Notes under the pieces: model-generated
Seen by the model: the letters and a program-made list of their open reading frames with translations, nothing else
Database searches by the model: none
Told to the model about the DNA's origin: nothing
NCBI GenBank assembly: GCA_937923605.1
Contig: CALDTY010000003.1
Span: 62,001 to 126,000 of the forward strand
Reading direction: 5' to 3'
DNA length: 64,000 nucleotides
DNA from: Candidatus Absconditabacterales bacterium
GTDB taxonomy: Bacteria; Patescibacteriota; Gracilibacteria; Absconditabacterales; Absconditicoccaceae
In this document: positions 1 through 29,146 of the stretch, piece by piece
Numbering within the stretch: the stretch's first letter is position 1
How the letters are laid out: each line of letters starts with the position of its first letter
Program-made: the position numbers and the translations under genes

Positions 1-683
1 TGAGGAAAGAAAAAGAATTGACTTGGGTAAGACCAGATAGTAAATCTCAAGTGACAGTAGAATATGAAGATTGAGTTGCAAGAAGACTTGATGCAGTAGT
101 TATCTCTACACAACATGATCCTGATGTTACTCATGACCAAATTGTAAAGGACGTCATGGAGTATGTTGTTATGCCAGTTTGTTGAGATTGGATTGATGAG
201 AATACCAAATTTCATATTAATCCTACTTGAGCATTTGTTATCTGATGACCCCATGGTGATTCTTGATTAACTTGAAGAAAAATTATTGTTGATACATATG
301 GTGGAGTTTGAAGGCATGGAGGCTGAGCTTTTTCTGGAAAAGATCCTTCAAAAGTTGATAGATCTGCTGCTTATATGGCAAGGTACGTAGCTAAAAATGT
401 GGTTGCGAGTGGAGTATGCGACAAATGTGAAATTCAATTATCTTATGCGATTTGAGTTGCGCAACCTACATCAGTATATATAGATTGTTTTGGTACAGAA
501 AAAAAATCATTAGAAGAAATCGAAGCAACCATCAGAGAAAAATTTGATCTTTCCCCGGCATGAATCATTAGAACTCTAGATCTAAAAAAACCAATTTATG
601 CAAAGACAGCAGTATATGGGCACTTTTGAAGAGATGATGTTAGTTGGGAAAAAACAGACATGAAAAATATTTTTGATAATTAA
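1..683 (+). CDS. metK: S-adenosylmethionine synthase, C-terminal part
   Basis: Makes S-adenosylmethionine from methionine and ATP in the cytoplasm. The gene enters from the left edge; the reading frame starts at base 3 and ends with TAA at 681-683. The visible 226 residues contain the family's GGPHGDSGLTGRK stretch (near base 243) and the Gly-rich [19 protein letters not shown] stretch, both typical of the central and C-terminal domains. Several of these glycines are TGA codons, so the standard code would cut the gene many times. It lies 23 bases before ahcY, which removes the S-adenosylhomocysteine made when SAM is used. Confidence 0.96.
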
Positions 684-706: not shown

Positions 707-2011
<1,305 letters not shown>

Positions 2012-2060: not shown

Positions 2061-3062
2061 ATGTCAAAACTTCTTATAACCTGATGAACTTGATTTATAT
2101 GATCTCATGCAGTTGTTGAATTGCTTCAAGCATGACATCAAGTAGTGATACTGGATAACTTAAGTAATAGTGTGCAAGAAGTGACAGAAGCAATTTTTAC
2201 TATCACCTGAATACATCCACTATTTGAATATGCTGATATAAGAGATATTCAACAGGTAGAAACGATTTTCACAAAACATGTATTTGATGGGGTGATTCAT
2301 TTTGCTTGATTAAAATCAGTAAAGGAAAGTTGTGATAAACCATTTAGTTATTATGAAAATAATATCTTAGGAACCATAAATCTATTACGTTGTTTGGATA
2401 CATATAACGTAAGAAATATTATATTCTCATCTTCAGCGACGGTATATGACGCATCTTCGGAAGACGCACCTTTTGAAGAACAAATGAAAACAGGAAACAC
2501 AACAAATCCATATGGGACAACAAAGTTTATTATAGAACAGGTATTGAAAGATATGGCCCAATGGAGACAGATGAATATTACCTGCTTGAGGTACTTTAAT
2601 CCGATTTGAGCTCATCCAAGTGGTTTAATTTGAGAAGATCCACATGATGTTCCAACAAATTTACTCCCAATAATGATGGAAGTTCTTGAGGGGAAAAGAG
2701 AAAAATTATTTGTTTTTTGAGATGATTATAATACGATGGATTGATCATGTATAAGAGATTTTATACATGTAGTTGATGTTGCTCAAGCTCATAAAATTGC
2801 GTGGGAAAATTTAGCAAAGTGATTCAATATCTACAATATCTGAACTGGAAAAGGTACGAGTGTTTTAGAAATGATCTCATTGGTAGAAGAGGTCACATGA
2901 GAGGTGTTCCCATATGAAATTGTGTCAAGAAGAGATGGGGATGTATCAATTAGTATTGCTAAAGTTGCTAGAATTAAAAAGGCTATAGGTCGAGAGGCTC
3001 AACTATCAATAACATCTGCGATTAAAGATGCTTTAATTTTTAGAGCTAATATATATAACTAA
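2061..3062 (+). CDS. galE: UDP-glucose 4-epimerase
   Basis: Interconverts UDP-glucose and UDP-galactose for glycan synthesis. The 333-residue protein is an extended short-chain dehydrogenase: NAD-binding GGTGFIGSH at residues 7-15, SSSATVY around 123-129 and the catalytic YxxxK as YGTTK near residue 151. RYFNPIGAHPSG and RDFIHVVDVA are typical of GalE. It opens the surface-glycan locus that continues downstream. A related 4-epimerase acting on another UDP-sugar cannot be excluded from sequence alone. Confidence 0.93.
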
Positions 3063-3123: not shown

Positions 3124-4065
3124 ATGATTATGAAAAAGATAATTTCGATTGTTATACCTGCATATCATGAAGGTGCTTCATTGCATTCCTTTTTTTTGTC
3201 GTTACGTAAGGTATTGAATTCTATTTCAGAGTATGATTTTGAAATAATTTTTGTAAATGATGGTAGTACAGATAATACATGGGATACAATCAAAGATATT
3301 TCCTTACACCATGATAATGTAAGGTGACTTAATTTAAGTAGAAATTTTTGAAAAGAAGTAGCACTTACTGCATGATTAGAATACGCAAAAGGGGACGCTG
3401 TCATCACAATTGATGCTGACGGTCAACATCCAGTAGAAAAAATTTCTGAGTTCATAGAAGAACGAAAAAATTGATACAAAATTGTATACAATAAAAGACC
3501 TCAAATTGTTGGAGCAACCTTTATTAAAAAGATGTCTTCTAGATTGTTCTATTCTATTTTTAATAAAATTTCCGATTTCAAACTAGAGCCTTGAACCACC
3601 GACTATAGATTGCTGGATAGAATAGTAGTTGATCAATATCTTAAATTTTGAGAAAGAAACAGACTATACAGAGGACTAGTGGATCGAATGTGATTTTCTA
3701 AGAAAGCTCTTGTATTTGATGCTAAGCAAAGAATTTGAGATCAATGAGCTTCATATTCATTCTCTAAATTACTGAGGTTAGCAATGGATAGTGTAACTTC
3801 ATTTTCAATATTTCCATTAAAGTTAGTGTGATATTTATGATTACTTGTTATGATAATAGCAATCATACTTATAGTATTTATGGCTATTGATATTGTTATG
3901 ATGGATAATAGTAGATGATTTACAAATACATCTTTTTTGGTTATTTTTTCTATATTTCTTTCTTGAATTACTCTTTCATCGTTATGAATGATAGCTCTGT
4001 ATATTGCAAATATACATGAAGAAGTAATGGAAAGACCGCTTTATATTGTTAAAGAAAATATTTAA
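3124..4065 (+). CDS. Membrane-anchored family 2 glycosyltransferase (GtrB/ArnC-like)
   Basis: Predicted to transfer a sugar to a polyprenyl-phosphate carrier at the inner face of the membrane. The 313-residue protein has a GT-A domain: VIPAYHEG near the N-terminus, VNDGSTDNT, and the DADGQHP metal-binding stretch near residue 97. Two hydrophobic segments follow near the C-terminus (about 236-290), the arrangement of bacterial dolichol-phosphate-mannose-synthase-like enzymes. The stop overlaps the next start by one base (TAATG), so translation is probably coupled. The sugar is not predictable. Confidence 0.88.
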
Positions 4066-4538
4066 TGAAAAAAACGTATGTTATAATTTCTGGTTACTTT
4101 AATCCTGTTCATCCAGGACATATAGATTACTTTGAATTATCTAAAGATCAAGGAGATGAATTGCGAGTCATTATAAATAATGACATCCAAGCTGAATTGA
4201 AAAGATGAATACCTTCTTTTCAAGATAATGATTTTCGCATGAGAGTTGTGAGTTCAATGAAACCAGTTGATAATGTGGTTTTAAGTATCGATAAGCACCA
4301 GCTCCCCTGATGAGAAATCCCAGTCACAAAATCTTTAGAAAAGGTGGCACAATTGATTCGCGAGTCAGATGAAGATGCTAGATTAATTTTCGCTAATTGA
4401 GGAGATAGAAATAAAGACTTAGGAAATATACCAGAAGCAGAAGTTTGTAGAAAATATAATATTGAGCTATTAGATTGAATGTGAAAAAAAACACATAGCA
4501 GTAGAGATTATGTTGTTTTAGATGATAAAACATCATAA
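4065..4538 (+). CDS. Cytidylyltransferase-like nucleotidyltransferase
   Basis: A 157-residue protein of the HxGH nucleotidyltransferase family, which forms nucleotide-activated intermediates such as CDP-glycerol or ADP-heptose. The signature HPGH is at residues 16-19 (YFNPVHPGH). The usual C-terminal ISSTxIR-type motif is represented only by THSSRDYV. The gene overlaps the preceding glycosyltransferase stop by one base and lies one base from the next glycosyltransferase, so it belongs to the glycan operon. The substrate cannot be named. Confidence 0.8.
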
Positions 4539-4539
4539 C

Positions 4540-5727
4540 ATGAAAAAGGTATTGCATATATCAATTTATCCTGAGAAATGAAAGTTATATTCAAAAAAAT
4601 GATGAGTAGCTTCATATACTAAAAATCTTATTACATCATTTACTGATAATGAGACAGTGATGAGTATATTTTGTGATATTGACTCAGAGCCTGAAACTTA
4701 TCTAGAAGATGGTGTAAATATTATAAGAGGTCGAACGTTTTGAATTAAAAGTTTTTTCAAAATTGTATCTCATCTTCTAAAGTACTGATCTAATTATACA
4801 ACAGTTCATGTTCAACACGAACTTCACTTATTTGGTTCACTGTTTGTAGGATATTTAATATTATTTCTTCCGATAATATTTTTTAAAAAGACGTGGGTGA
4901 TCACTAGTCATCATGCAATTGATTATAATGATATTGATGCGAATTTTATAAAAAATCATGGTCAATTCTTACCAGTTTTTGTAGTGAAATTTGCTTTTAA
5001 GGTATTATACTTTTTATATTGATTACGAGATTCAATAATAGTTCATGAGTATGTGCATAAAGAAAGGTTATACTCTCAATATGGTTTACGTAAAGATCTT
5101 ATTCAAGTTATCCATCATTGAGTAGAAAATAAAAAAAGGATTCCTACAATTCTTGCAAAAGAAAAACTATGACTTGAGTCTTATGAAAAAATAATATTCT
5201 ATATGGGATATGTGACTTGATATAAGGATCTTTCTGTACTTATAAAAGGATATTCTCAATGGGTAAAGTATAATCCCGACAGTATTTTGATTATATGAGC
5301 GGGTCCAGAAAAAAAATCACTTAATAATCAAGAATATCTTGCTTATTATAATTCACTCCAAGATTTAGCAAAAGAACTGATTCCGAAAAGAAATTATAAA
5401 TGGTTATGATTTGTAGCTTCTGAAGATATACCTGCTTATTATTCTGCAAGTGATGTGCTTGTTGTGCCTTATAGGTATACTTTGAGTGCCAGTGGACCAA
5501 TGGCGATAGCTATATCATATTGATTACCATTTCTTGCGAGTGACTGTTTTGAAGAGTACTTTGTAAATTTCTCTGAATGTATTTTTAAACTATCTCCTGA
5601 TGGTTTGGAAAAGTGATTAGTAAATTTCTTTGTAGATCAAAAAAAATATATGAAGACGATAAACAAAATGAAAATTGAAAGACAATATAGAGTTTCAATG
5701 GAAAAAACATTTTCAATTTATAAATAA
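4540..5727 (+). CDS. Family 4-like glycosyltransferase (GT-B fold)
   Basis: A 395-residue soluble glycosyltransferase. It has an N-terminal acceptor-binding half (KKGGVASYTKNL, VHVQHELHLFG) and a C-terminal nucleotide-sugar half with IFYMGYVTGYKDLSVLIKG, LIIGAGPEKKSL, SASDVLVVPYR and an acidic E near SASGPMAIAISYGLPFLA. This order is typical of GT4 enzymes. It follows the cytidylyltransferase-like gene by one base. Donor and acceptor are unknown. Confidence 0.87.
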
Positions 5728-5730
5728 TTA

Positions 5731-7497
5731 ATGTTTAGAAAATTAAATAATACATTTGTTTTTCTTCTGTATTTAATCTTTAATTTTTTTGCTTGGAATT
5801 TTTTTTTGCCGATTAAAAATTTTTGAAGATTAACATATAATTTTGAAGATAATATATGATATTTTAATAAAATCAAAGTATTCTCGGATGTAATTAAGGA
5901 CTTTAGTGTTGAAAGATTGGTAGATTTCTATTCATCTTATAATATGGTTGCACCATTGCGAGAATATATGTGATCTTTATTGTCAATGTATTTCACACCA
6001 ATTCTTGTTGGAAATATCTTCATTTTTATGAATACGCTTTTGTCTGCTTTCTTCACTTACTTACTTATTAAACGATTAAGTAAGTGAGATGTATGATTAT
6101 CGATCCTATGAGGAACTTTCTTTTGATTTTCCTCTTTGTTAATTTATATTCAACGATTCAACTTAGTCTGAATTTTCTTCTTACCTTTAATTGTGCTATA
6201 TCTTTTAAGAACTCTAAAGCAGGGGAAATTATCAAATTTTTTATTATTAATTACATTTTCGACATTATTAATATTATCTTCAACCTATTACATATTATAT
6301 CCCTTTATAATATTGTTCGTTTGATTGCTTTCAGTAAATAAAAGTCGTATATTAAAATTTATCAAGATTAGTTTTGTTACTTGATTAGTTTCCTATGTGA
6401 TATGATGATCAGTTTATATGTTGCCTTATGTTATTTCAGATAATAACTCAAGAATTAACCAGGTAGTAAGTGAAAGAGCATTAGATTTTTATGGTTATGA
6501 CTATTGAAATTTATTTGTAACTAATATTAATAACCCTTTTACTAACAATGATTTATATACAACTTTGAAATGAATTTTTTATCAATGAGTAGAGGCAAAA
6601 AGATTTAGATATAGCTCTTACGTTTGAATCACATCGTTATTAATTTTATTGTACATAGTGTTTATGTACTTTAACAAGACTGTAACTTTAAAAGAAGAGA
6701 AGTCTACAGAAATAAATATCAATACTTTTGCTATATTATTGATGATTTGTGGAATTATGTTATACTGATGAGAATACTTAGTTTTCCTTTGAAACCATTA
6801 TGAATGAATTAAACTACCATTATACTATCTTCATCAATTGCCTTATTGAGAGATTTTTAGAAAATGAGTTTATTTTTTTAATTTATTTGCTTTTTGATGA
6901 GCATTGCTTATTGCAAAGAACTTTAAAAATTTATCATTATCATTTGCAGTATTAATTTCTATCATTCTTTTTCTTGAGAATAATTTTTCTTTTAAGAGAC
7001 CCTATTTTGAGTTTATAGATATGAGTGATTATAATAAGTATTTAAATGATAGTGATAAATATTATTTATCTTTACCAAACTCATGATTCACAACTCACTA
7101 TTATAATTTATATCATAACTTAAACGATTTCGAGTCGAAGATTTACACTTATCCTTCATTCTTTCATAAGGAAGATTCAAATTTTCATTCTAAAAAACAT
7201 AAGGAAATAGATTGAAATTGTATTTTGAATAATTTAATAAAAGATTGAACATGTGAATACTCATTGAATGATTTTAAATATTTACTAGATATTTGATTAG
7301 ATAGAATTATTCTACATAAGAACTACATACATTGATTTTTTTTCTTTTCAAAAGAGTGATCATGAAATAAATTTCTCAACAACTTGAATTATTTGTCAAG
7401 TATTCCAGAGATTCAGGTTATATACGAAGATAAAAATATAATTGTCTTTAATATTAGAAATCGACTAACTAAAACTATTGCCGAGTATTCAAATTAA
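5731..7497 (+). CDS. Polytopic membrane protein of the glycan locus
   Basis: A 588-residue protein with many hydrophobic segments through about residue 420, then a C-terminal soluble region rich in aromatic and charged residues. The architecture resembles large YfhO/GT-C type membrane glycosyltransferases, but I see no diagnostic motif and do not name a function. It starts three bases after the GT4 gene and probably ends the operon. Its 3' end overlaps by 23 bases the end of the convergent sulfotransferase gene. Confidence 0.8.
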
Positions 7498-8401
7498 TGT
7501 TTAATAACTTTTCTAGTTTTTGGATTTCATCTTTATAAATATTATTTAAAAATTTAATTTCTTCTTCATTAATCAATGATGTTTTTTTATTAAAGAATCA
7601 TTTAATTTTCTCAATTTGTTCTCATGTTAATAGTTTACGCAGGTATGGCATTATTCATAATTTATTTATTATCCAATTAAAGAAAGGATATTTTGGTATT
7701 CATCATGAGTTATATACCTTATCATCATTTAATTGCGTTCTTTTGATTCACAAAAAATCAGATATATCGTTTAGTATAGTTAGTTTATCTTTAAATAAAT
7801 CTTCTGCAAAAATGATTTTAAAGTTTGAGCGAGGAAATAAATCAAAATATCTTTTTAGTTGAGAAGAGTAAAATCAAGGTTCTATGTATAGATGAGATTG
7901 TCATCGTCATCTTACTTCTTTTGTCATATCGTTTTGTATAGATTCAATCATTCTTTTCGTAGTTTTTCAATCTCTATATGCCATTGCTCGGTGTGAATAT
8001 GCTCTAGATATAGGGTTGCGGAGTATAACTAGGAATTTTGCATCAGGATACTTTTTATAAATTTCACTGCTTGCAATCTTTGAAAAGAGATAACTTGTAC
8101 TTGCTTCTCAAAAAATTTGATTCTCTTTTCTATGCTCAAACAATCTTTCGTAATGTTTAGTATTAGATATATGTGCTGCATGAATATTTGGTAGTACTGT
8201 ATGAGAAAAATACCATCAGAGATCGACTCATGTATTTCTTTTATACTCAGCACTTAGCGATTCTCGTATTATATCTTTTGAAAAGAAATGAGGTTCCTTG
8301 ACTGATGACATACAAATTTCAGGATGTAATTGTAAATAATGATATAGGGAAGTTGTTCAAGATTTTGGAGCTGAGAGTATGAAGAACCTGTTTTCTCACA
8401 T
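7475..8401 (-). CDS. PAPS-dependent sulfotransferase
   Basis: Predicted to move a sulfuryl group from PAPS to an acceptor hydroxyl. The 308-residue protein begins with the 5'-phosphosulfate-binding loop APKSGTTS (residues 11-18), followed by YLQLHPEI and KEPHFF; GEASTSYL precedes the 3'-phosphate-binding RNPISRAYSH (about 127-136). These features match bacterial and heparan-type sulfotransferases (Sulfotransfer_1/3). Five kilobases away are cysC, cysD and cysN, which make its donor. The last 23 bases overlap the convergent membrane-protein gene. The acceptor is probably a glycan, by context only. Confidence 0.9.
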
Positions 8402-8490
8402 TATTATTTATTTTATAAAAAGAATTCTTTTAAAGAGAGTATAAATATGTATATTGCTAATTCAAAAAGAAGATTTACTTAAATACATTC

Positions 8491-9255
8491 ATGGGTATAA
8501 ATGTTAAGGAAATTTATCGGACTTGATATAGATTATCAGTCCATATTAGGCCAATAATGTTATTATTATACTGAAATTATGCTCCTAATGAGTTTATAAT
8601 TTTTCCTAATAAGAAAATGTCTTATTTACCGATCTCTAAGGTAGCGAATTCTTCATTAAAGAAGTGTTTGCTGCCATTGCAGGAGTTAGATTCATTTGAC
8701 ATAAAAGATAATTATTCAATTCATTCATTACCATGGGTAAAGAAGTTTTGATCACCTCCACAAGATTATTGGACCTTTACATTTGTTAGAAATCCATTTG
8801 ATCGTTTAGTTTCAGCGTATAAAAGTAAATTTTTAAAGGACATTCAAGATGGTTGAAAATTTCAGCTGAGGTATTATCCATTTTGAAATCTTAACGCATG
8901 AATAACATTTGACGAATTTGTTGACTCAATTTATGCTATACCAGACTATTTAGCAGACACTCACTTTAAATCACAATATAGTACTGTATACACAAAACAG
9001 TGAACATGCTTAGTAGATTATATTTGAAAATACGAGACACTTGATACTGATTTTAAATTGATCCAAGAAAAGTATGATTTAGATTCGTTACCAAGCTTTA
9101 ATGTAACTAACAAAAGTTCAAGTGATACTTATTTGAAATATTATACATTGGAATCTTTTGAGAAAGTATATCAAAGATACAAAAATGATGTCATTAATTT
9201 TTGATATCAAGATCAATACTTAGAGGATCTCGCATCTCTTTCATCATTTGTATAG
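8491..9255 (+). CDS. Carbohydrate-type sulfotransferase (Sulfotransfer_2-like)
   Basis: A 254-residue protein of a family distinct from its divergent neighbour. KVANSSLKKCL (about residues 47-57) fits the 5' PAPS site of carbohydrate sulfotransferases, and FTFVRNPFDRLVSAYKS (about 98-114) is the classic 3'-phosphate site. DTHFKSQYS is also typical of this family, which sulfates sugar hydroxyls. No signal peptide is visible. It is transcribed away from the first sulfotransferase with 89 bases between starts, and lies four bases before the next membrane-protein gene. Confidence 0.87.
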
Positions 9256-9259
9256 CATT

Positions 9260-10804
9260 ATGTTCCCATTTTTTTTAGATCAAGTGTTTTATGAAAATCA
9301 GTATTCGATATATGACTCTTTTCTCTGGCAATTCTTAGATATAATTGTGAAATCTTTTTGAGAATTATCATGATTTATATATCTAGTTATAGTTATTTGT
9401 TGATGAATATTTTTCTATTATTTTCCGTTAAAAAGAATCTTTTTTGAAAATAAGAAAAAATATCTTTTAATATTATTGTTTCTGACTTTTCTCATATTTA
9501 GTCCATTTTTTTATGAAAGATGATTAACCCAACCTAATGTTCTTATCAGCGCTATATATATATGACTTTGACTGCTTTTATTGCAAAGACAAAGTCCAAT
9601 AGATTTGATCTATGTGTGATTATCATTTTCAATAGCGTTAATGGCGAGGCCACACTCACTTTTTATGATTCTTTTGATATATATTGTCTGGGCAATCATA
9701 TATCTAAGGAAAGTTAAGCAGCTCAAATACTTGATTTTAAGTTGATTTATCATCTTGCTTACAAATAGTAATCGAATCTTTTCAGCAATCACATGAAACA
9801 ATAATACATTAAGTAAGACTGTTGAGATTGATAAAACTAACATTGAAGTATTTCAGATAACAAATTTAGATGGACTTGGGAGCGAGTTAACATGACTACT
9901 TCAGTATTGATTTTGGTGAGAAAGGGCAGGCCACATCTTGGTGCCTTGAGAGGTGTATCAATATCGATGGATTTGAGGCATCATTATTGTCTTTTGTTGT
10001 ATGGTTTGATGGCTAATATTATTGTGGGGCACTAAAACACGCAAACGAGGATTATTTGTAGCGATCTTATGAGTGCTGTCCTGGGTGTTGTGAGTTTGAG
10101 TTTGATCAGATATACGATGAAGTGTTATATGGCGAATGTGAGACAATATTCCTTTGTATAATGGAATGAGAGATTCTCAAAAACGAATTTGAATGCTTAT
10201 GATATCACAACTCGTCTGATGGATAGTTTTTTGGAAATATATTATACTAAAAATCGAAGATCATCATGTTCTATGAAAAAATAATACTATGTTAAATTGA
10301 ATGATCGTTTTATTGAGTTTATTGTTGCTGCATATACGAAATCCTCATATGCCTCAGGCTATATGAAATCAAATTTTATGGACAAATCGACCTCAAGAAT
10401 ATTACGAATTTAAGGATTATTTATCTAACCATAAAGGAGATGGAAATATTCTCATCATGCCTTGGCATAGCTATGTTGCATGTGAATGGACTAATAAAAA
10501 AATCATTCCTCTAGTATTAGATAAATTTATATGAGATTCCCGCTTAATAAGATCTGACAATATTGAAGCTTTTCACTTATATTCAAATTCAACTAACCCT
10601 AGATCAGTCGACATTGAATTGTGGAGAAAAGATATGAAAAATTTTTCTATCTTGAAGAAGTGGGATATAGAATTTATTTTACTGATTGATGATTGTAGTT
10701 TTGAATGGGAAAGAGAAGAATTGTTAAATGAATTTGAAAATTCAGATATTTTATTAAAAAAACGAAAAAATTGAGCACTCAATCTATATTTTATTGATTT
10801 GTAA
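9260..10804 (+). CDS. Uncharacterised membrane protein with C-terminal soluble domain
   Basis: A 514-residue protein. Roughly the first 390 residues hold many hydrophobic segments, often Trp- and Gly-rich, with a large share of glycines written TGA. The last 120 or so residues are soluble and begin with FKDYLSNHKGDGNILIMPW. The layout recalls membrane glycosyltransferases of the GT-C type, but no signature was found. It follows a sulfotransferase by four bases, so the two are probably co-expressed for glycan building. Confidence 0.75.
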
Positions 10805-10823
10805 ATAATTTTAGTTGAAACAG

Positions 10824-12152
10824 TTAACTCCAAAAAAATGTTGTTAATTTATCTGTTTTCCAAATATAGCTTACATAAGAAATGTTCCAAAATGAAAGAC
10901 TAATGCAACTTGCTATTGCGGCTCATGTTAATCAATAGTTAGGAATAAGAATAAAGTTTAATACCACGTTCAAAATAGCTCAAGCAATAATTATATATTG
11001 CATCACAACTTGTTTACCCGTCATATTCATGTAAATTCATGCGCTTCAAGCTCGAGAATTAACTAACTGTCATCCGGCTAAAATCATAAGAGGAGTACTT
11101 CATATGAGGAATTCTTTTCAAATAATTCACAAAAAGAATCATGGGAAAATCATAAAAAATAAAAATATCGGAATTCAAACTAGAATTGATACTAGACCTC
11201 ATAATTTTAAGATTGATTGTAGTTTTTTGATATTATGAGATCGATATAAGTTAGCAATTTGTGGAGCTATGATACTATTTACCATATTCAATCAAAATCA
11301 AACAAGTATTGATAGAGAAATGGCCATTTGATAAACTCAGACATCTGACGTATCCATCATCATCCCTAACATAAATATATCAGTTTGTGCAGTAATAAAT
11401 GCTGCAATAGAGGTTATCATCATCGGTAAAGAAGTTATGATGAATTGTTTATTATCAATAGGGATTCTTTTTGGCAGATTCTTTAGTGGTTTATATAGGC
11501 CAATAATTGCAATAAAAGCTAGAATTATTATAGCTGCTAGAAAACCATATGCAGGACCATAAATAGTTCAAGTAGTTAGATAAATAATAATGAGAGTTGT
11601 GATTTTAGTTAGAAATAATCATATCTTTTTTACAAATTCATACCATGTTATCATCTTGAATCATCTCAGCATTTCCATTCAAATTGTGTAAATGGGAGCT
11701 ATAGGCAATATGATGATTATTATTTCTAATAGATTCTCAAGACGTGGCTCGTTAAAGATGTTAATTGCTATGTACGACTTTGTAAAGTAAAGTATAACCA
11801 TCATGATTATTGTAACACTTCACACATACATTAAAGTAGCTTTTAACATAGATCTTATCTTCCCAGTTTCATTATGAACAATATTCTGATTAATATATCT
11901 AACAATAGATCATTGTATTCACAGACCTATCATGGCTGATATGAGAGCAAATATCATAACAGTAAGACTATATAATCAAACTGCTTCATCTCCAAACCAT
12001 CTTCAAGCTAAGATCAAGAAGAGGTATCAAAATCACATTCCAAGAACTGAAGCAATTCAAGAAATTCACGCTCATCTGAATAATTCAGCGTAATCCTTAT
12101 CTCAAAGGATGATGTTTTTGTACTTTGTAAATAGTGATATCAGTTTTTTCAT
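10824..12152 (-). CDS. Oligosaccharide flippase (Wzx/MOP superfamily)
   Basis: Predicted to flip lipid-linked sugar units across the cytoplasmic membrane. The 442-residue protein has about 12 hydrophobic segments and the family's usual features: LFRGAGISGIASVLGMGFG at the N-terminus, a central PMMITSIAAFITAQTDIFMLG segment and TGAAIASCISL near the end. It lies inside the glycan locus on the opposite strand, divergent from cysC. An in-frame ATG nine codons upstream (12177-12179) is an alternative start; MKKLISLF at 12152 looks more like a natural N-terminus. Confidence 0.88.
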
Positions 12153-12266
12153 AGTGGCAAAGATACTATATATATTCATGTTTGTCACAAGTCTTTATTG
12201 CATTAGTATTATACTTGCATATAAATATTAAGACAGTTGTCGCACATTTTTTTTTGAAAAATAGAT

Positions 12267-12797
12267 ATGAAGTGATATGTTCTACGATTTACGTGACTAT
12301 CTGGAGCCGGTAAAACAACTCTTTCAGATGCAGTTTTTGATCATCTACAGAAGTCTTGAATCCAAAATATTCAGCAATTAGATTGAGATCTAGTAAGAGA
12401 ACATCTCACTAAAGATTTATGATTTTCTAAACAAGATAGAGAGGAAAATATAAAAAGAATAACATTCGTTGCTTGATTGCTTACCAAACATTGAGTTTGA
12501 GTTCTTGCAACATTCATTTCTCCTTATGTAAATTTGAGAAAATATGTAAGAGATAATACAACGAACTTCATAGAAGTGTTTGTTAATGCACCCTTGAATA
12601 TTTGTGAAGATAGAGACGTAAAGGGTTTGTATGCAAAAGCTAGAAAATGAGAAATAGAGAATTTTACTGGAATATCTGATCCATATGAGACTCCGGAGAA
12701 TCCAGAAATTGAAGTCAGAACGGATCTTTGTAGTATCCAAGAGTGAGTAAATCAAGTAATTGCCTACCTTCAAGAACATAATTATATTGCTAAATAG
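12267..12797 (+). CDS. cysC: Adenylyl-sulfate kinase
   Basis: Phosphorylates adenosine 5'-phosphosulfate to PAPS, the sulfate donor. The 176-residue protein has Walker [10 protein letters not shown] at residues 10-18, [16 protein letters not shown] and the lid/substrate stretch [15 protein letters not shown] followed by FTGISDPYE, all diagnostic of APS kinase. Two of the Walker A region glycines are TGA. It heads a run cysC-cysD-cysN-DUF2061-cysQ that makes PAPS and clears its by-product PAP. Confidence 0.95.
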
Positions 12798-12835
12798 TAT
12801 ACCTTACGAAATTATTATCTTATTAATTTGTTTCC

Positions 12836-13741
12836 ATGAACTACAATCTTAAACATCTACAAGAACTAGAAGCTGAATCAATTTATGTACTACGTGAAGT
12901 TGCGGCTCAGTTTCAAAATCCTGTATTACTTTTCTCTGGTGGGAAAGATAGTATTGTAATGTCTTATCTAGCCAAAAAAGCTTTTGCTCCTGGCAAAATT
13001 CCGTTTCCAATGATGCATGTAGATACGGGACATAATTTTCAAGAAGCGTTAGATTTTCGTGACGCATGGGCGGAAAAAATTGGTGCTAGAATTATTGTAA
13101 AACTTGTACAAGATAGTATAGACAGTGGAAGAGCAGTCGAAGAAACCTGAGTCAATGCAAGTAGAAATGGACTCCAGATAGTTACACTTCTAGATGGATT
13201 GGAAGAAGAAAAATTTGATGCCGCAATGTGATGAGGAAGAAGAGATGAAGAAAAAGCACGTGCCAAAGAAAGATTTTTCTCACACAGAGATGAGTTTGGA
13301 CAACGAGATCCCAAAAATCAGCGTCCAGAACTATGGAATCTTTTCAATGGAAAGAAAAAGATCGGAGAGCATTTTAGAGTATTTCCAATATCCAACTGGA
13401 CTGAAATGGATATTTGGCAGTATATACTACAAGAAGATATTGAAATTCCTAGTTTGTATCTGAGCCATACGAGAGATTGTTATGTAAGAGATGGTGTAGT
13501 TTTGGCATATGATGAAAGATTTATTACGCTCAAAGATGATGAGGAAATAACTCCTATGCAAGTGCGTTATAGAACACTTGGTGATGTTACCTGTACTGGA
13601 GCAGTCCATTCTGATGCTGATACGATACAGAAGATAATAGAAGAGGTAGCTTCTACTAGAGTGACCGAAAGGTGATGAAGATCAGATGACAAAAGATCAG
13701 AAACTGCGATGGAAGATAGAAAGAAACAAGGTTACTTTTAA
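12836..13741 (+). CDS. cysD: Sulfate adenylyltransferase small subunit
   Basis: With CysN, forms adenosine 5'-phosphosulfate from sulfate and ATP. The 301-residue protein is full length for CysD. The PP-loop SGGKDS lies at residues 34-39; [16 protein letters not shown] and [17 protein letters not shown] are conserved family stretches, and the C-terminus ends [10 protein letters not shown]. Glycine TGA codons are used sparingly. The next gene, cysN, begins 18 bases later. Confidence 0.96.
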
Positions 13742-13759
13742 TTGATTTATAGTGTTGTA

Positions 13760-15016
13760 ATGACGTATGCTGATATGGAACTTCTTCGTTTTACTACTGC
13801 CTGAAGTGTAGATGATGGAAAAAGCACCTTAATAGGGAGACTTTTGTATGATACAAAATCAATTTTTGCTGATCAAATGGAAGCAATAGAAGCAACTTCT
13901 AAGCGTAAAGGCGAGGAAGAAGTTAATCTTGCGTATTTAACTGATTGACTCAAGGCAGAAAGAGAACAATGAATTACTATTGATGTAGCTTATAGATACT
14001 TTGCTACACCAAAAAGAAAATTTATTATAGCAGATACTCCATGACATCTTGAATATACTAGAAACATGGTAACTTGAGCTAGTACTGCAAATGTTGCACT
14101 CATATTAATTGATGCTAGAAAAGGGGTTATAGAACAAACATCTCGTCATAGTTTTATAGCATCGTTGCTAGGTATCCCTCATATTATCTTTTGTATCAAT
14201 AAGATGGATCTAGTTGATCGATCTGAGGAAGTATATAATGGTATAAAAGATCAAGTTGAAGGAATGACGTCGAAACTTAATATTCAAGATATACATTTTG
14301 TTCCTATGAGTGCATTAACATGAGACAATGTTGTGCATAGATCAGAGCATATGAATCGATATCAAGGATCTCCTTTGTTATATCTATTGGAAACAATTCA
14401 TATTTGAAGTGATGAAAACCATATAGATCGTCGTTTCCCTGTTCAGTGGGTAATCCGTCCTCAAAGTGATGAATATCATGATTATAGATGATATGCCTGA
14501 AGAATAGCAGGAGGAGTGTTCAAAAAAGGAGATGAGGTTGTCGTATTACCTTCATGATTTCAAAGTAAAGTAAAAGAAGTTGAACTTGATGGAGCACCAC
14601 TAGCAGAATCATTTGCACCAATGTCTGTAGTAATGACGCTTGAAGATGATATTGATATTTCAAGAGGAGATATGATTGTAGGGAAAAACAATCAGCCTGA
14701 AGTTAGTCAAGATATCGACGTTATGATCTGTCGATTTCATAAGAAACCTCTTCAGGAGAATTGAAAATATACAGTAAGACATACAAGTAAAGAAACTCGT
14801 TGTGTTATAAAAGATATCACCTATAAGATTGACGTAAATACTATGCATAAAATGGAGTCAGTTTGAGAAATCACGATGAATGATATTGCAAGAATTTCAA
14901 TAAGAACGATGAGTCCATTGTTTTTTGACCCATATAGAACCAATAGACATACCTGAAGTCTTATACTTATAGATGAGAGTACAAACGAAACAGTAGCTGC
15001 AGGAATGATTTTGTAA
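13760..15016 (+). CDS. cysN: Sulfate adenylyltransferase GTPase subunit
   Basis: GTPase that drives APS formation by CysD. The 418-residue protein has G1 GSVDDGKST (15-23), G3 DTPGH (about 92-96) and G4 NKMDLV, followed by beta-barrel domains like those of EF-Tu. It has no fused APS kinase domain; that activity is the separate cysC. The G1 and G3 motifs each rely on a TGA glycine (the first Gly of GSVDDG and the Gly of DTPGH). Confidence 0.96.
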
Positions 15017-15023
15017 TATACTA

Positions 15024-15293
15024 ATGATGTTCACAGATCTAATTAAGAAACGACGAATTTCTTCACATCCTGAAAGAGATAGTAGAAGAAAATCATTATT
15101 AAAAGCTCTTTCTTGGAGGGCAGTTTGAACCATTGATACCATTTTGCTTTCCTGGTTACTAACATGAACCTTAATGATAGCATTAAGTATTTGATGATTG
15201 GAATTAATTACAAAAACTTTTCTGTATTATATTCATGAAAGAGTATGGTCTAACTATGATATACAGTCTTACAAGGATTTAGAGCAAAATTAA
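15024..15293 (+). CDS. DUF2061 small membrane protein
   Basis: An 89-residue protein with two hydrophobic segments. It shows the DUF2061 pattern: RRKSLLKALSWRAVGTIDT, a hydrophobic stretch with TG, then ELITKTFLYYIHERVWS. Its role is unknown; I recall DUF2061 proteins being encoded beside or fused to sulfate-activation genes, as here, eight bases after cysN. A second ATG at 15027 would shorten it by one residue. Confidence 0.85.
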
Positions 15294-15319
15294 TTTTAAT
15301 TTTTTGATTATTGTTATAT

Positions 15320-16096
15320 ATGTTGGAAGAAATAATCAAAATAGCTAAACAAGCCTGAGATGAAGTCATGAGAATTTATCAAGACCCTAGTGAAGATTTT
15401 GAATTGGATAAGAAAGATGATAATTCTCCAGTAACTAAAGCAGACATTGCAGCTCATGATATAATAGTTTCATGACTTAAGGAATTAGATTATTGATTTC
15501 CACTTTTGTCAGAAGAATGAGCTTCGATTCCATATGAAGAAAGAAAAGAGTGGGACACCTATTGGTGCATAGATCCACTGGATTGAACAAAAGAATTTAT
15601 TAATCGTAATTGAGAATTCACAATAAATATTGCGCTTATTCAGGACAATAAGCCAGTCTTATGAGTAGTGTATGTGCCTGCACTAGAAAAAACATATGCT
15701 GCCGATAATAAGTGAGCATTTCTAAGAACACACAAAGAACAAATTTCATTACAAGTAAATAAGAAGAAACCAGGAGATGAACTTAATGTAGTTTGAAGTC
15801 GTTCTCATCATTCTGATGAAGTAGATGCTTTTATAACAAATTTAGAAGAAAAGTGATATAAGACATCTTTTGTTTCAGCAGGAAGTTCACTAAAATTTTG
15901 TTTGATTGCTGAAGGTAAAGCAGATGTATATCCACGTTTTGTTCCAACAATGGAACGAGATACGGCTGCAGCTCACTGTATATTAGAGCAATCTTGATGA
16001 TCTATCCATTTAGTAAATGGATGATTGCTTTCTTATAATAGAGAAAATTTACGTAACTGATATTTTATTGCAAAAGGGTATTTAGATTATTCTTAA
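15320..16096 (+). CDS. cysQ: 3'(2'),5'-bisphosphate nucleotidase
   Basis: Removes the 3' phosphate of PAP, the inhibitory by-product of sulfotransferases, giving AMP. The 258-residue protein belongs to the inositol-monophosphatase superfamily: [17 protein letters not shown], the metal site [20 protein letters not shown] (about 80-100) and [10 protein letters not shown], with [11 protein letters not shown] near the end. In the metal site the Gly of LDGTKE is TGA. It completes the sulfate-activation set and overlaps the next start by one base (TAATG). Confidence 0.94.
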
Positions 16097-16611
16097 TGAT
16101 GATATTTCATGAAAGTATCAATTTAAAATTTAAGTTGTGAATCATTTTTTTTATACTAAATTTTATTGTTATATTAGTTCCTACTATTTTCAAAATTGAT
16201 ATAACTAACTTGATATCATCTTGATGGTTACATATTTGATCTTTGATAATAATTTCACTATGAGGTATAATATTGGGTACTAAATGAATGATCTCCATGA
16301 ATTTGAAGCCAAGTAGAAGTACTTGGTTAGTAAGTTTATTCTTATTTTTCATTTTCATGTGATTAACTTTTATATTCTTCTCGAATTATTGAGTTATATT
16401 CTTTTACTTTTATCTGGTATTACTTGGAAAGTTATTTTGATTTAAGCCTTATTACTTTATGTTAACTGCCTTAATCTTTCTTCGATATTCAATTTGGTTT
16501 AGAATATCTGGTCAAATTGTATTAGTAAACGAATTCACTACATATATATATTATAGTGTACTTGCTGGTATTTTTCTATATTTATTTCAAATTAATCCTG
16601 ATAATCTATAA
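16096..16611 (+). CDS. Uncharacterised membrane protein
   Basis: A 171-residue protein made almost entirely of hydrophobic segments, about five. It is translationally coupled to cysQ (TAATG), so it may work with the sulfation module or simply end that operon. No family was recognised. Confidence 0.65.
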
Positions 16612-20032: not shown

Positions 20033-20185
20033 ATAAGAAAAAAATAGGAACATTTTTTGAGTTTCTGGCAAGGTAAAACATTTTTTTGCTTACTTATTAG
20101 ATTGATTTTGATATCTAATTTCCTATTCTGTCTATGTTAGACAACCTAACAGATGCATTTTTTTATATTTATATGTATTGTAATT

Positions 20186-20941
20186 ATGTCAAAAGAAACA
20201 TGAACAACCTTATCATGGGTTGCATTAGTATTAGCTGCATTAGCACTTATTCTATGATTCACAGGTAAATTTGGAGGAGGAAGTGCTCAAATCGCTCAAG
20301 CTCCAGCAGCTGTTCCAGCAGCTGTTCCAGCAGCGGCTCCAGCAGCGGCTCCAGCAGCAGCTCCAGCTCCAGCAAACGTAAAAGTTGCAAAAGCTGATTA
20401 TGACAAATTTCTTGAAGGTGCTTACGTAAGTGGAAATAAAGATGCAAAAGTAACTGTAATTGAATTTTCAGATGTACAATGTCCTTTCTGCCAAAGACAT
20501 GTAAACAACTGAACATTGGATCAAGTACAAGAAAAGTATGGTGATGATGTAAATGTAATCTTCGCTCATTTCCCACTTAGTTTCCACCAAAATGCTCAAA
20601 AAGCTGGTGAAGCAATTGAATGTGCAGGTAAATTAGGAGGAGATGACAAGTACTTCGAATTCAAGAAAGCTTACTTTGCAGCTTGATGAGATTCAAATCT
20701 AGATATAGCTAAAAAGGCTGCTACTGAAGTAGGTCTAGATGGTGATGCTCTTATGGGGTGTGTAGATTGAGGTGAGTTCGCTCAAAAGGTAAAAGATCAA
20801 ATGGCATTTGGTCAAGGACTTTGAGTAACAGGTACTCCTGGTAACATTGTTGTAAACAATGAAACATTAGATACACAAAAAATATCTGGTGCGGTTCCAG
20901 CTAGTGCATTTGATGCAGCAATTGGTTGAATCATTAACTAA
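20186..20941 (+). CDS. Membrane-anchored DsbA-like thiol oxidoreductase (CPFC)
   Basis: A 251-residue extracytoplasmic protein: an N-terminal hydrophobic anchor (about 8-27), an Ala/Pro linker (about 36-64, AP repeats), then a DsbA-family thioredoxin fold. The active site CPFC is at residues 99-102 in [12 protein letters not shown], and the cis-Pro loop is [12 protein letters not shown]. It probably forms or shuffles disulfides in exported proteins. Two further DsbA-like genes and three Cys-rich secreted proteins follow within 11 kb. It has its own terminator. Confidence 0.92.
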
Positions 20942-24209: not shown

Positions 24210-25463
24210 ATGATTCGTTCTTGATCTACTCTTAAGTTGCTATCGCTAACACTTTCATTGTTTATGTTTTTATATTGGTCTACAGTTATTGCCCAATGAT
24301 TTGTTGCATGAAGAACTAATCATTGTTGAGATTGAATCTTACGTACTGATCTTTGAGAGGTATGTGATGACTGAAATTATAATGATGGTGATGGTTGCGA
24401 TCATAATTGTCAGGATGAATCTAAAAAGACTATGATGCCAACAAATCAAGAAATCCAATATGATCCAAGTAGAGTTAGTGAAACTACGACATATAAAGTA
24501 TTTATGCATTGAAAATTTTCCCATACAGTCCAGATAAACAGTGGTCAAGAAATATGTGATTATGGTTCAGATAATTGAGTGCTTTGTGAACCAGGGTATG
24601 GCGGTGCATGTTATTATTGTTCATCTACTTGTAAACTTGAAAAAGTTCAGTGACATGTTTGTTGAGATTGAGTAGTACATCATTTGTATGAACAATGCGA
24701 TGATGGAAATTCACAAAATTGAGATTGATGTAATTCCCTATGTAATAAAGAAAATGTATTTGTAGTTCAACCAACGAATACCTCACAAACTTGAATCACT
24801 GATATTGTCATTAATATTCAACCAGAAAAGAAAGATGATGTGAAAGTAACGATACCAAATAAAGCGTTAACTCTTCCTAGTGATATTCCTGCTTCAGATA
24901 CATCTTTACTACTTCCATCTAGTAAAGATATTTCTGTGGTTGAAAAGAAGCCTGTTAATACGACAACAACAACTAAAATTGTAATCTGAAGTGCTACTCC
25001 TAAAATAACAGAAGTTGCTGATAAAGTAAATAATAATAATGTTCAACAAACTCAACCTGTTGTTAAAAAAGAAATCACAAAGAAGGAAATCACAAAGAAG
25101 GAAATCATAAAGAAAGAGGTAACAGTTGGAATTTCAAACACAAACGAAACTAAGGTGATGAGTCCGTTGCAATTGCCATTAGTGGAAACAGTTGATACAG
25201 GGGCGCCAAAAATGTCATTAAAAGTAGAAGCTGATAGCTGAATTAATGACTGACGTATTGTGCAATGAGATATGCAGATGCGTCAAAATATTTTGGTAAG
25301 GACATCGCCTACTAAGGCATGAATATGAATAACCTCTCCTTACCCAGATAAGTTATCAATGACATGAGCTTCATTATTGATTTCTTCATCAACTATATTT
25401 ATGTGGATACTGAGTTTATTTTTAAGTATCTATTCATTTTGATTAATTTGGAGTAGAGATTAA
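24210..25463 (+). CDS. Secreted Cys-rich repeat protein with sortase-like C-terminal anchor
   Basis: A 417-residue exported protein. After a signal peptide come repeats of the DUF4215/Myxococcus Cys-rich type: HCGDGILRTDLGEVCDDGN, then DGDGCDHNC, CEPGYGGACYYCSSTC and VCGDGVV. A long Thr/Lys linker follows, with KKEI(T)K repeats near base 25070. The C-terminus has DKLSMTGAS, a hydrophobic segment and a final SRD: this looks like a sortase signal with LSMTG in place of LPxTG. Eleven kilobases of similar genes and a sortase follow. Probably a surface-anchored disulfide-rich protein. Confidence 0.85.
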
Positions 25464-25530
25464 AAAAAGTGTATAGAATCTAGAAATATGTAATGAAAAA
25501 TGTAAAGATTATGCTCTTGAAATAACTTCT

Positions 25531-25554
25531 AAAAGCCCAATTGGGCTTTTTTTT
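25531..25554 (+). terminator. Intrinsic terminator
   Basis: AAAAGCCCAATTGGGCTTTT is a 20-base perfect palindrome followed by more T, 67 bases after the Cys-rich gene. Confidence 0.88.
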
Positions 25555-25658
25555 ATGTCTTTACGTCATGATTAAATTTAGTTGTAAAATGTATTGACTT
25601 TATTTCAAACTTGACTACAAAAGTCTTGTGTAAATTTTATTTATTATTAATTATACGT

Positions 25659-26984
25659 ATGAATAACTTTTGAAAAGCTCTTATTGCAATGTTACTTGCA
25701 TGAGTTATGTGAATGAGTATTTCAACAGCAGCAAATTATTGTTGAGATTGAGATTACCGTCCAGAATTATGAGAAGAATGTGATGATGGGAACTATACAA
25801 ACTGAGATGGATGTGATTCAAACTGTCAAAGTGAGACAGCTGATACATCTAACACAAACACAACAACTACTACTACAACTACAACATCAGTAACTCCATC
25901 TCCAACAACATTTTTGGGAGGGATAACTACTACAACTAACACAGCAAATACTGTGATAAGTTGAAATAGTAACTCTAATTGAGTTAGCAATTCTAATGTG
26001 CCTGCTCACTTAGCTGAAGCTTGTGACGCAGGAAATGAAAATGGAATTGTATGTGAACCAGGATACGGTGGACAATGTTACTACTGTAGTAATGCTTGTG
26101 AAGTTGTAGCTGTAGCATGACCAGAATGTGGTGATGGAACTGTACAATCTTCATTTGGTGAATCATGTGATGAAGGATCAAATAATGGATCAGTATGTAC
26201 ACCAGGATATGGAGGTACATGTACTTATTGTAGTACAAGCTGTGAAGTAATGACAGTAAATGGAGCAACATGTGGAGACGGACTAGTAAATGGAGGAGAA
26301 GCATGTGACGAAGGAGGAAACAACGGATCAGTATGTACACCAGGATACGGAGGAACATGTAGTTACTGTAGTACTTCATGTCAAGTAATGAATGTAAACG
26401 GAGCAACATGTGGAGACGGACTAGTAAATGGAGGAGAAGCATGTGACGAAGGAGGAAACAACGGATCAACATGTACACCAGGATACGGAGGAACATGTAG
26501 TTACTGTAGTACTTCATGTCAAGTAATGAATGTAAACGGAGCAGTATGTGGAGACGGACTAGTAAATGGAGGAGAAGCATGTGACGAAGGAGGAAACAAC
26601 GGATCAGTATGTACACCAGGATACGGAGGAACATGTAGTTACTGTACATCAAGCTGTCAATTAGCTAATGTAAATGGAGCAACATGTGGAGACGGACTAG
26701 TAAATGGAGGAGAAGCATGTGACGAAGGAGGAAACAACGGATCAACATGTACACCAGGATACGGAGGAACTTGTTCTTTCTGTACAACTAGCTGTACTCT
26801 TCAAAACGTAAACGGAGCAACATGTGGAGACGGATTAATAAATGGTACAGAACAATGTGATTCAGGTGCAATGAATGGATCAGTATGTACAGCTCCATAT
26901 GATGGACAATGTAACTATTGTAACTCAGATTGTAGAACTGTAACAGTTAAAGGTGCTTTCTGTGGTGATTGACTTAACCAATAA
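25659..26984 (+). CDS. Secreted Cys-rich protein with 46-residue tandem repeats
   Basis: A 441-residue exported protein: signal peptide, one CGDGDYRPELGEECDDGN-type unit, a Thr/Asn-rich linker, then five near-identical 46-residue units of the form CGDGLVNGGEACDEGGNNGS, CTPGYGGTC, SYCSTSCQV, preceded by one diverged unit and followed by a partial one. Each unit has seven or eight cysteines, so heavy disulfide bonding is expected. In the array all of the more than 50 glycines use GGN codons and none TGA, unlike the homologous gene at 30523. No LPxTG motif is seen at its end. It has its own terminator. Confidence 0.9.
26250..26965 (+). repeat. 138-base in-frame tandem repeat array
   Basis: The TGT of CGDG recurs at 26271, 26409, 26547, 26685, 26823 and 26961, always 138 bases apart (46 codons). 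Copies two to four are nearly identical even at synonymous sites, pointing to recent duplication or gene conversion. An upstream diverged unit starts at 26127. Confidence 0.95.
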
Positions 26985-27002
26985 GACATAAGTTTAAAAT
27001 AT

Positions 27003-27034
27003 AAAAAAACCCTGACATCTGTCAGGGTTTTTTT
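27003..27034 (+). terminator. Intrinsic terminator
   Basis: A7-CCCTGACA, two-base loop, TGTCAGGG-T7, 18 bases after the Cys-rich repeat gene. Confidence 0.9.
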
Positions 27035-27087
27035 ATTGTTATTTATTATATCAACTATATAGTTGTCCTATTTATTTAACTATTGCT

Positions 27088-27972
27088 ATGATAAAAAAAC
27101 TCTTATGAATTCTGTCTTTAGTGTTGCTTACTTCTTCAGTATTATGATTGACTTATCAACAGATCAATAATGATCAATTATTACTCAATTGAGTAAAAAA
27201 ACAAATCAATACTATTCATGATTCAAATCCTGAAAAGATTAATAGAATTCACCAAAAGTTACCAGTGGTGATTTCATTATATGAACCTTCAAGTAGAGAG
27301 TATTATATATTGCAAAATGTATATGAGTATATCACAAGCATCAAGTATGAAGATATATATCTTTCAGAAGAAGTAGATTTAAGAGATTTCCCATACTCTC
27401 AGATGGTTAATAGTTTACTTCGTGATATACCGATATATAAAAACATGATAACAGATTTTACGATTTTGGAAATCACAAGCCTTTCTTGTGGCTATTGTAC
27501 TGATTCAATAGAGACTTTACTTTGAGATATGCAAGAGATTTATAAAGACAAGATAAGTATTGCTCTTGTAAATGCGCCTTGGAATAAGGCTCAAGATGAT
27601 GATCTAGATGATTGAAATTCTCTTTGAGCTAAAGCAATGATATGTGCAAAAGATCTATGATCTGATTGATATTATGAATTTGCCATGAGACTTCAGAAAT
27701 TGAAACTCAAAGAATGATCTATAGTGAATCTTTATGATGATATGTCCAAAGAATATTATTCTTTCAATTCTGAAAAATTTAAACAATGTCTATCTTCTGA
27801 TAAAACAGAATCTGAAGTGAGACAATTAATTAAGTTGAGAAAAGATGTGGGTACTTGAGCACCAACTCATATTTTTTATAATAATAAAACATGACAATAT
27901 CAAGGATTGCATGGAAATATGAGTATAAATGCTTGGATACATGTGATTGAAAAATTAGAACCTACTTTGTAA
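27088..27972 (+). CDS. Exported DsbA-like thioredoxin-fold protein (CGYC)
   Basis: A 294-residue protein with an N-terminal signal/anchor, a helical spacer of about 90 residues and a thioredoxin-fold domain. ITSLSCGYCTDSIETLL places the CxxC pair at residues 134 and 137. VGTGAPTHIFYNNKTGQYQG near the C-terminus fits the cis-Pro region. Gly-Tyr between the cysteines differs from the usual Pro-His or Pro-Phe, which should change its redox potential. The next gene is a third DsbA-like protein. Confidence 0.82.
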
Positions 27973-28036
27973 GTATTGATATTTAAAGTAAAAGATATAT
28001 AGTATCGTAATAAGATTTTTATCTTTTTTGTGTGTT

Positions 28037-29128: not shown

Positions 29129-29146
29129 TAGATAATAAATTTTAAT

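Follow-up and report, generated by a model that had tools for sequence, protein, structure and literature searches.

The 64,000-nucleotide stretch of DNA analyzed here (the window; G000:C3:62001-126000) carries a gene locus that we consider likely to direct the sulfation of an exported glycan in a member of the Absconditabacteria (SR1), with 3′-phosphoadenosine-5′-phosphosulfate (PAPS) as sulfo donor. A complete PAPS module (cysC, cysD, cysN, and cysQ) stands beside two sulfotransferase genes, here called ST1 and ST2, amid genes for glycan assembly and export. This arrangement had been claimed in the initial annotation, and all of the genes named there were found in place by their reading frames and their Pfam and NCBIfam matches once TGA was read as glycine. 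The locus lies on a 214-kb contig of a 1.31-Mb genome assembly (34 contigs, 83.5% complete, 2.64% contaminated) whose bearer is a tiny and probably host-dependent bacterium. Judged by its frames and motifs, the locus is real, intact, and recoded. The sulfation system is larger than the window, with a third sulfotransferase (ST3) on contig C11 and a SulP-family transporter on contig C1 of the same genome.

PAPS module and sulfotransferases

The PAPS cassette comprises five forward-strand genes. The adenosine-5′-phosphosulfate (APS) kinase gene cysC (12237..12797, with a possible later start at the ATG at 12267) scores 215.7 bits against TIGR00455 (cut-off, 138.7) and matches PDB entry 5cb6 at 4e-57. 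The small and large (GTPase) subunits of sulfate adenylyltransferase, cysD (12836..13741) and cysN (13742..15016), reach 414.2 bits against TIGR02039 (cut-off, 396.6) and 538 bits against TIGR02034 (cut-off, 336.1), so that ATP sulfurylase and APS kinase together provide for complete PAPS synthesis. The fourth gene, an addition to the gene list of the initial annotation, encodes a DUF2061 membrane protein (15024..15293; PF09834, 78.5 bits) and is found in the same block in a related genome, G124. The last, cysQ (15311..16096), encodes the phosphatase for the by-product 3′-phosphoadenosine-5′-phosphate (PAP) and scores 285 bits against TIGR01331 (cut-off, 228.8), with a match to PDB entry 3b8b at 1.5e-67. 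The predicted sulfate role of the SulP-family gene (G000:C1:106986-108077), which contains 23 in-frame TGA codons, would complement this module.

ST1 (7475..8401, reverse strand) is above the curated cut-off for the Sulfotransfer_1/3 families (PF13469, 6.1e-14; PF00685, 4.4e-12) and carries the PAPS-site motifs PKSGTTSL, KEPHFF, and RNPISRAYSH. Its best solved relative is PDB entry 3rnl (3.9e-34), followed by heparan-sulfate 3-O- and N-sulfotransferases, and it is the single PF13469 match in the genome. ST2 (8491..9255, forward strand) belongs to Sulfotransfer_2 (PF03567, 2.1e-23; 84.2 bits, cut-off 22) and has both PAPS-site motifs. A plain phmmer search of ST2 against PDB gave no relevant match; a six-sequence ST2 profile reached steroid sulfotransferases at 7e-4. 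A predicted ST2 model built from 36 sequences (predicted local distance difference test score [pLDDT], 81.3; predicted template modeling score, 0.79) has an arginine at residue 10, a CGG codon, inside its low-confidence N-terminus. Foldseek alone returned nothing at E < 0.001 for this model; VIA-align, comparing 414 chains, placed sulfotransferases in all 50 top rows, with heparan 6-O-sulfotransferase first (Z score, 9.3; root mean square deviation, 4.0; 183 aligned residues). One of the matched structures is presumably StaL. The initial annotation had called the two enzymes unrelated members of distinct families; they do belong to different Pfam families, but "unrelated" was too strong, as the ST2 model indicates one common fold. 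IMG/VR viral contigs are rich in ST2-like (PF03567-type) sulfotransferases, a relative being encoded in 255 of 431 pattern-matched stretches.

Loss of key PAPS-site residues had been named as something that would speak against the module. All 18 motif patterns sought are present (four in CysC, three each in CysD, CysN, CysQ, and ST1, and two in ST2), and as far as sequence can show, the identity and intact motifs of these six proteins are established. ST3, a second PF03567 protein (G000:C11:22777-23367), is flanked by a Mur-ligase-like gene and an S-adenosylmethionine methyltransferase gene, followed by Stealth-type and CDP-glycerol-type transferases, and stands in a second glycan locus.

Distribution of CysC and sulfotransferases

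The distribution of these genes was examined in a class sample of 288 genomes and a phylum sample of 361 genomes, both drawn from larger groups. PF01583 matched in 44 of the class genomes; we counted as CysC matches the 32 that scored at least 54 bits, of which 12 reached at least 116 bits (strong matches), and left out the 12 of 44 below 54 bits. PF03567 and PF13469 were above cut-off in 12 and 23 class genomes, and genomes with sub-cut-off sulfotransferases (1 of 13 for PF03567, 5 of 28 for PF13469) were not scored as positive in Fisher tests. One or the other family occurs in 23 of the 32 CysC-match genomes versus 6 of the 256 other class genomes (Fisher P = 1.9e-21, ignoring shared descent), the positives being spread over eight family labels (f1, f5, f7, f10, f14, f20, f23, and f27). 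Where CysC match and sulfotransferase occur together (n = 23), they share a contig in 16 genomes and lie within 10 kb of each other in 15. Sulfotransferases accompany 11 of the 12 strong CysC matches, the exception being G273, and all 14 CysC-match genomes with ATP sulfurylase (nine with CysD, five with Sat), a gene searched in the 32 CysC-match genomes only. The CysC-like gene of G273 has a CysQ-like gene and a protein of the sulfatase family (PF00884) in its neighborhood (L061 8939-14909). The phylum sample was searched for PF03567, not PF13469, and gave matches in 5 of 18 CysC-match genomes (at least 54 bits) versus 7 of 343 others (P = 1.1e-4).

Sulfation versus sulfate reduction

CysD, CysN, CysC, and CysQ serve sulfate assimilation in many bacteria, and the cys genes could accordingly be a remnant or a working part of assimilatory sulfate reduction, with the sulfotransferases nearby by chance. 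We regard this as highly improbable. The initial annotation reported no reductase, a finding that we extended from the window to the genome, where the only match to PF01507 (PAPS_reduct) is cysD itself and no match to PF01077 (sulfite reductase) occurs, a search that found the domain in 11 of 14 control genomes. The cysH/cysI pathway that would have explained the module was thus not found genome-wide: neither CysH nor sulfite reductase was found in the 83.5% complete assembly, AprA-type APS reductase not having been searched. Of the 288 class genomes, G023 is the only one with PF01077, and it lacks a CysC match. Strong PF01507 matches appear in 9 of the 32 CysC-match genomes, and all nine align with the window CysD along its entire length (266 to 682 bits); the remaining PF01507 matches in these genomes are below 30 bits and mostly fall in frames of about 600 residues. 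Because PAPS genes co-occur and are linked with sulfotransferases and sulfite reductase is confined to 1 of 288 genomes, the comparison supports the view that PAPS is made for sulfotransferases rather than for reduction, and we rejected assimilation on these grounds. The claim that PAPS serves sulfotransferases in a glycan-assembly setting gains from class-wide co-occurrence, from linkage, and from the glycan genes nearby.

Several observations weigh against a glycan sulfation system. Twenty of the 32 CysC matches are weak, spanning roughly two thirds of the model; the weak matches may represent another kinase, because the two that were compared with TIGR00455 both fall below the APS-kinase cut-off. 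In nine of the 32 CysC-match genomes no sulfotransferase was detected, nor was an ATP sulfurylase in any of the nine, and six class genomes have a sulfotransferase and no CysC match. In the phylum sample 13 of the 18 CysC-match genomes lack PF03567, and seven genomes have PF03567 without a CysC match. PF01583, PF03567, and PF13469 are absent from all four other genomes of the same genus in the class sample, and the trait is therefore patchy. The incompleteness of the genome makes it possible that a reductase lies outside the assembled part, which also counts in favor of assimilation. Two membrane proteins of the locus, mem1 and mem2, have no assigned function.

Gene order in relatives

The initial annotation had proposed conserved gene order as a check, and a second genus bears it out: in G124, from another genus of the same family, the order Wzx (reverse strand), CysC, CysD, CysN, DUF2061, CysQ is the same block as in the window. 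The ST2 relative of G124 (41% identity) lies on a separate contig, surrounded by four glycosyltransferases together with an FkbM methyltransferase and a CDP-glycerol-type transferase. Other genomes place the PAPS genes in comparable company. G182, which is TGA-recoded, has a row of sulfotransferase, Wzx, CysC, Sat, CysQ, and UDP-sugar dehydrogenase. In G219 a sulfotransferase lies beside CysQ, CysD, and a fused CysN-CysC, followed by Wzx, an epimerase, and a methyltransferase. G150 combines both sulfotransferase types with CysD, CysN-CysC, CysQ, and a Wzt/Wzm-like exporter inside 13 kb. In G077 a PF03567 gene and a methyltransferase come with CysN-CysC, CysD, CysQ, a family 2 glycosyltransferase (GT2), metK, and an adenosylhomocysteinase (SAHH) gene. 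Glycosyltransferases, Wzx or Wzt/Wzm, epimerases, and UDP-sugar dehydrogenase thus recur beside PAPS modules. In G268 an ST1 relative adjoins a NeuB-family gene and an APS-kinase-like gene below the curated cut-off (L070 6221-9394), a locus that possibly concerns a sulfated nonulosonic acid.

Methyl-cycle genes adjoin PAPS genes in two lineages, the window and G077. At the window edge, which cuts it, metK (3..683, forward strand; PF02773, 7.6e-71) encodes S-adenosylmethionine synthetase, a possible partner that would supply the methyl donor; its recurrence beside the PAPS genes of G077 makes its membership in the sulfation system possible. SAHH (ahcY; 707..2011, forward strand; TIGR00936, 629.8 bits, cut-off 497.6) is likewise a possible partner. 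The G077 copies, in a genome using the standard code (L054 14159-17319), are 63% (metK) and 66% (SAHH) identical to those of the window. G000 (C11), G124, G077, G219, and G276 all have methyltransferases close to PAPS genes or sulfotransferases. Taken with the neighboring methyl-cycle genes, these methyltransferases suggest that methylation of the glycan may accompany its sulfation.

Genetic code and origin of the cassette

Under the standard code the window genes are broken, and reading TGA as glycine yields long open frames. Against aligned standard-code relatives of window genes, TGA faces glycine at 73% of 1,255 residues. CGA is read as tryptophan, not arginine: at 11 sites in 7 window genes, the 167 residues of relatives aligned with it comprise 129 Trp, 28 Tyr, and no Arg. 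Codon use in 23 window genes across 707-54401 (47 CGA, 4 CGG, 71 TGG) puts CGA at two thirds the frequency of TGG and about level with the rest of the CGN codons, which makes it a substantial tryptophan codon in these genes. Most annotation used translation table 25, with CGA as arginine, by which a few Trp residues were misread as Arg; when ST1 was re-read with CGA as tryptophan, its 3rnl score rose from 116.6 to 121.6 bits. G124 has CGG opposite Trp in 25 of 25 aligned residues and also reads CGA as tryptophan. The pair UGA to glycine and CGA/CGG to tryptophan has been assigned to Absconditabacteria (SR1) (Shulgina and Eddy 2021, PMC8629427). Since the window shows UGA as glycine and CGA as tryptophan, the host of the locus most likely belongs to that group.

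A reading of the locus as mis-binned or dead Bacteroidota DNA could draw on the patchiness of the trait within the family and on CysD, whose identity with Bacteroidota proteins reaches 76%, yet we find it hardly credible. The five cassette genes hold 47 in-frame TGA codons, and CGA occupies Trp sites in CysC, CysD, CysN (two sites), and CysQ, at each of which all 25 relatives have Trp, so that only a recoded host could read the cassette. The length of the contig, the intact frames and motifs, and the same block in a second recoded genus also stand against mis-binning. We rejected contamination because the host's altered codons at conserved Gly and Trp sites speak strongly against it.

A Bacteroidota contribution to the cassette itself is a different matter. 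A CysD search of the named genome collection, with the best 80 of more hits kept, returned Bacteroidota titles on 74 of those 80, and one locus, L095, carries the same block as G124. In the CysD tree (80 rows, omitting L058 and L059, with bootstrap not settled), the window and G124 pair at 100/100 inside a Bacteroidota-rich group, nearest a Winogradskyella-Algoriphagus clade at 92/78 and apart from G150, G077, and G219. Other CysD donors are also possible, because the tree drew on the best 80 of more hits. DUF2061 lies directly 5′ of CysC-CysD-CysN in 8 of 78 other CysD loci, and CysQ follows CysN in five of those eight (L098, L105, L106, L107, and L132); L098 has an opposite-strand open reading frame (ORF) called between CysD and CysN, and L109 carries no CysD label in the set. 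The window CysC is 59% identical to that of G182, from its own class, versus 49% to the Bacteroidota neighbors of CysD. The cassette is therefore probably a mosaic, partly from Bacteroidota, because CysD falls among Bacteroidota and CysC is nearer its own class.

At the TGA sites, glycine makes up 93 of 100 residues of the Bacteroidota relatives in CysD, 237 of 260 in CysN, 44 of 56 in DUF2061, 112 of 198 in CysC, and 163 of 266 in CysQ. Because TGA faces Gly and CGA stands at conserved Trp sites, the cassette is, on the evidence of its codons, an old import that has been rewritten into the host code.

Glycan-assembly genes and proposed pathway

The glycan-gene surroundings described in the initial annotation held up on profile search. 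galE (2061..3062; TIGR01179, 373.2 bits, cut-off 262.3) is followed by a family 2 glycosyltransferase (3124..4065; PF00535, 4.6e-30; NF047588, 222 bits, below the cut-off of 500; nearest NCBIfam models, PgfS and an ArnC-type undecaprenyl-phosphate transferase), a cytidylyltransferase-like nucleotidyltransferase (4065..4538; PF01467, 1.6e-9; TIGR00125, 46.2 bits), and a group 1 glycosyltransferase (4522..5727; PF00534, 3.8e-12), all on the forward strand. The Wzx-like flippase (10824..12188, reverse strand; PF01943, 4.9e-17) has a counterpart on the same strand beside cysC in G124. The cluster thus holds an epimerase, two glycosyltransferases, and a flippase; neither a polymerase nor an initiating transferase was identified in it. 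Two forward-strand membrane protein genes complete the neighborhood. mem1 (5731..7497), which is large, has no Pfam match, and mem2 (9248..10804), which overlaps the end of ST2, weakly resembles GT-C-type PMT_2 (E = 0.0042; 17.7 bits, below the cut-off of 26.1). The two show no significant similarity to each other. For mem2, no relatives were found in PDB, on the viral contigs searched, or by BLAST (E, 1e-5) among ORFs of 20 neighbor regions and 80 CysD loci, and its single-sequence model (pLDDT, 41) is too low in confidence for use.

The sulfation reading supports a pathway whose order of steps we infer. SulP, encoded elsewhere in the genome, would import sulfate; CysD/CysN would convert it to APS and CysC would convert APS to PAPS. 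Sulfo transfer by ST1, ST2, and ST3 would then take place in the cytoplasm, with a lipid-linked or nascent glycan as acceptor, itself the product of the adjoining epimerase, nucleotidyltransferase, and glycosyltransferases. Wzx would move the glycan outward, and CysQ would turn the by-product PAP into AMP. We infer likewise that the acceptor is a glycan and that it reaches the cell surface.

Acceptors other than a free polysaccharide are conceivable, namely small molecules, lipids, or protein-linked glycans, with a Nod-factor-like signal, a sulfolipid, or a sulfated glycoprotein as the product. Enzymes of the PF00685/PF13469 group include small molecules among their acceptors, the GT2 protein is nearest, though below cut-off, to PgfS, which NCBIfam names as a glycosyltransferase, and PMT_2, the family that mem2 weakly resembles, comprises protein mannosyltransferases. 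Against this, the nearest solved structures to ST1 and ST2 are 3rnl and heparan-sulfate sulfotransferases, and each of the three sulfotransferase genes in the genome sits in a glycan locus alongside genes for a flippase, an epimerase, or polymer transferases; we judge these acceptors improbable.

A role of the sulfated product in host contact is conjecture. A fuller picture, speculative and on balance unlikely, gives some Absconditabacteria, small epibiotic or predatory bacteria, a coat that is both sulfated and methylated, with the two donor cycles (metK/SAHH and CysDNC/CysQ) in one locus that was assembled from several sources, Bacteroidota among them, and recast in a doubly altered code; its negative charge would govern recognition of a host or prey cell, or protection from it. 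If true, such a coat would be a surface chemistry unreported from the candidate phyla radiation (CPR), as far as our searches reach.

Other features of the window

Downstream of the cassette, mem3 (16096..16611, forward strand) encodes a small membrane protein without a Pfam match; it overlaps the end of cysQ by 1 base, and its membership in the locus is uncertain. An upstream PfkB gene, tried as adenosine kinase, had no NCBIfam model above cut-off. A cluster of likely secreted Cys/Gly-rich proteins spans 24210-31512, with DUF4215 proteins at 24210-25463 and 30523-31512, a sortase at 29194-30441, and thioredoxin-like genes nearby at 20153-20941 and 28028-29128. In this cluster, a 138-bp unit recurs 5.3 times (26160-26891) within a 457-amino-acid ORF (25611-26984). 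A 15-bp repeat occurs 27 times at 36179-36585, inside a 712-amino-acid minus-strand ORF (35164-37302) without a Pfam match. No tRNA and no Rfam match was found within the 64-kb window, and scans gave 90 promoter sites versus 115 expected and 3 terminators versus 4.1 expected, counts that carry no information.

Comparison with known systems

The initial annotation knew of no sulfation system described in this group, and our search of the open-access literature (titles and abstract starts, with subscription journals outside its reach) agrees, though it cannot prove absence: no report was found of a sulfotransferase system in Absconditabacteria, Gracilibacteria, Peregrinibacteria, Patescibacteria, CPR, or Parcubacteria. 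In the parts of the texts covered, an account of Vampirococcus lugosii refers to type IV pili, glycosyltransferases, and an elaborate surface and makes no mention of sulfation (PMC8080830); a Gracilibacteria metaproteogenomics paper contains none of the sulfation-related terms sought (PMC11452946); a freshwater CPR paper does not mention sulfate, sulfotransferase, or PAPS (PMC9166423); and a sulfide-spring paper does not describe CPR sulfation (PMC10811913). The locus offers a concrete, testable surface chemistry for bacteria about whose attachment to hosts little is understood, together with a case of a borrowed cassette recast into a code with two reassignments. Because PAPS genes and sulfotransferases are linked across the class, sulfation should be predictable from genomes.

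The locus resembles the polysaccharide cluster of Vibrio sp. KMM 8419, which also contains cysC, cysD, cysN, sulfotransferases, and glycosyltransferases; PAPS genes with sulfotransferases in such a cluster have been called a hallmark of sulfated polysaccharide (PMC11641403). Unlike the window, that free-living marine bacterium has an 80-gene cluster, capsule export by an ATP-binding cassette transporter, a solved polysaccharide structure, and a second cys set, and neither cysQ nor DUF2061 is named in the parts of the paper covered (PMC11641403).

Closer in gene content are the five Bacteroidota loci noted above, e.g., in Winogradskyella, in which the five genes are adjacent and Wzx or galE is near in some. 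They belong to the group nearest to the window CysD but differ in placing DUF2061 before cysC rather than after cysN, in using the standard code, and in a CysC less similar to that of the window than are the copies in Gracilibacteria-class genomes. The TGA-recoded G182 module (L057), from the same class, likewise carries sulfotransferase, Wzx, CysC, and CysQ side by side, and differs in having the ATP sulfurylase Sat (PF01747) in place of CysD/CysN and an adjacent UDP-sugar dehydrogenase. Nod-factor sulfation (NodP/NodQ/NodH and NoeE) similarly pairs PAPS supply genes with dedicated sulfotransferases. Its acceptor is a secreted lipochitooligosaccharide, whereas the window shows no evidence of such a signal, and ST1 matches NoeE over 25 residues, far below cut-off. 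The kind of system is known from sulfated capsule loci, and its bearer appears to be new.

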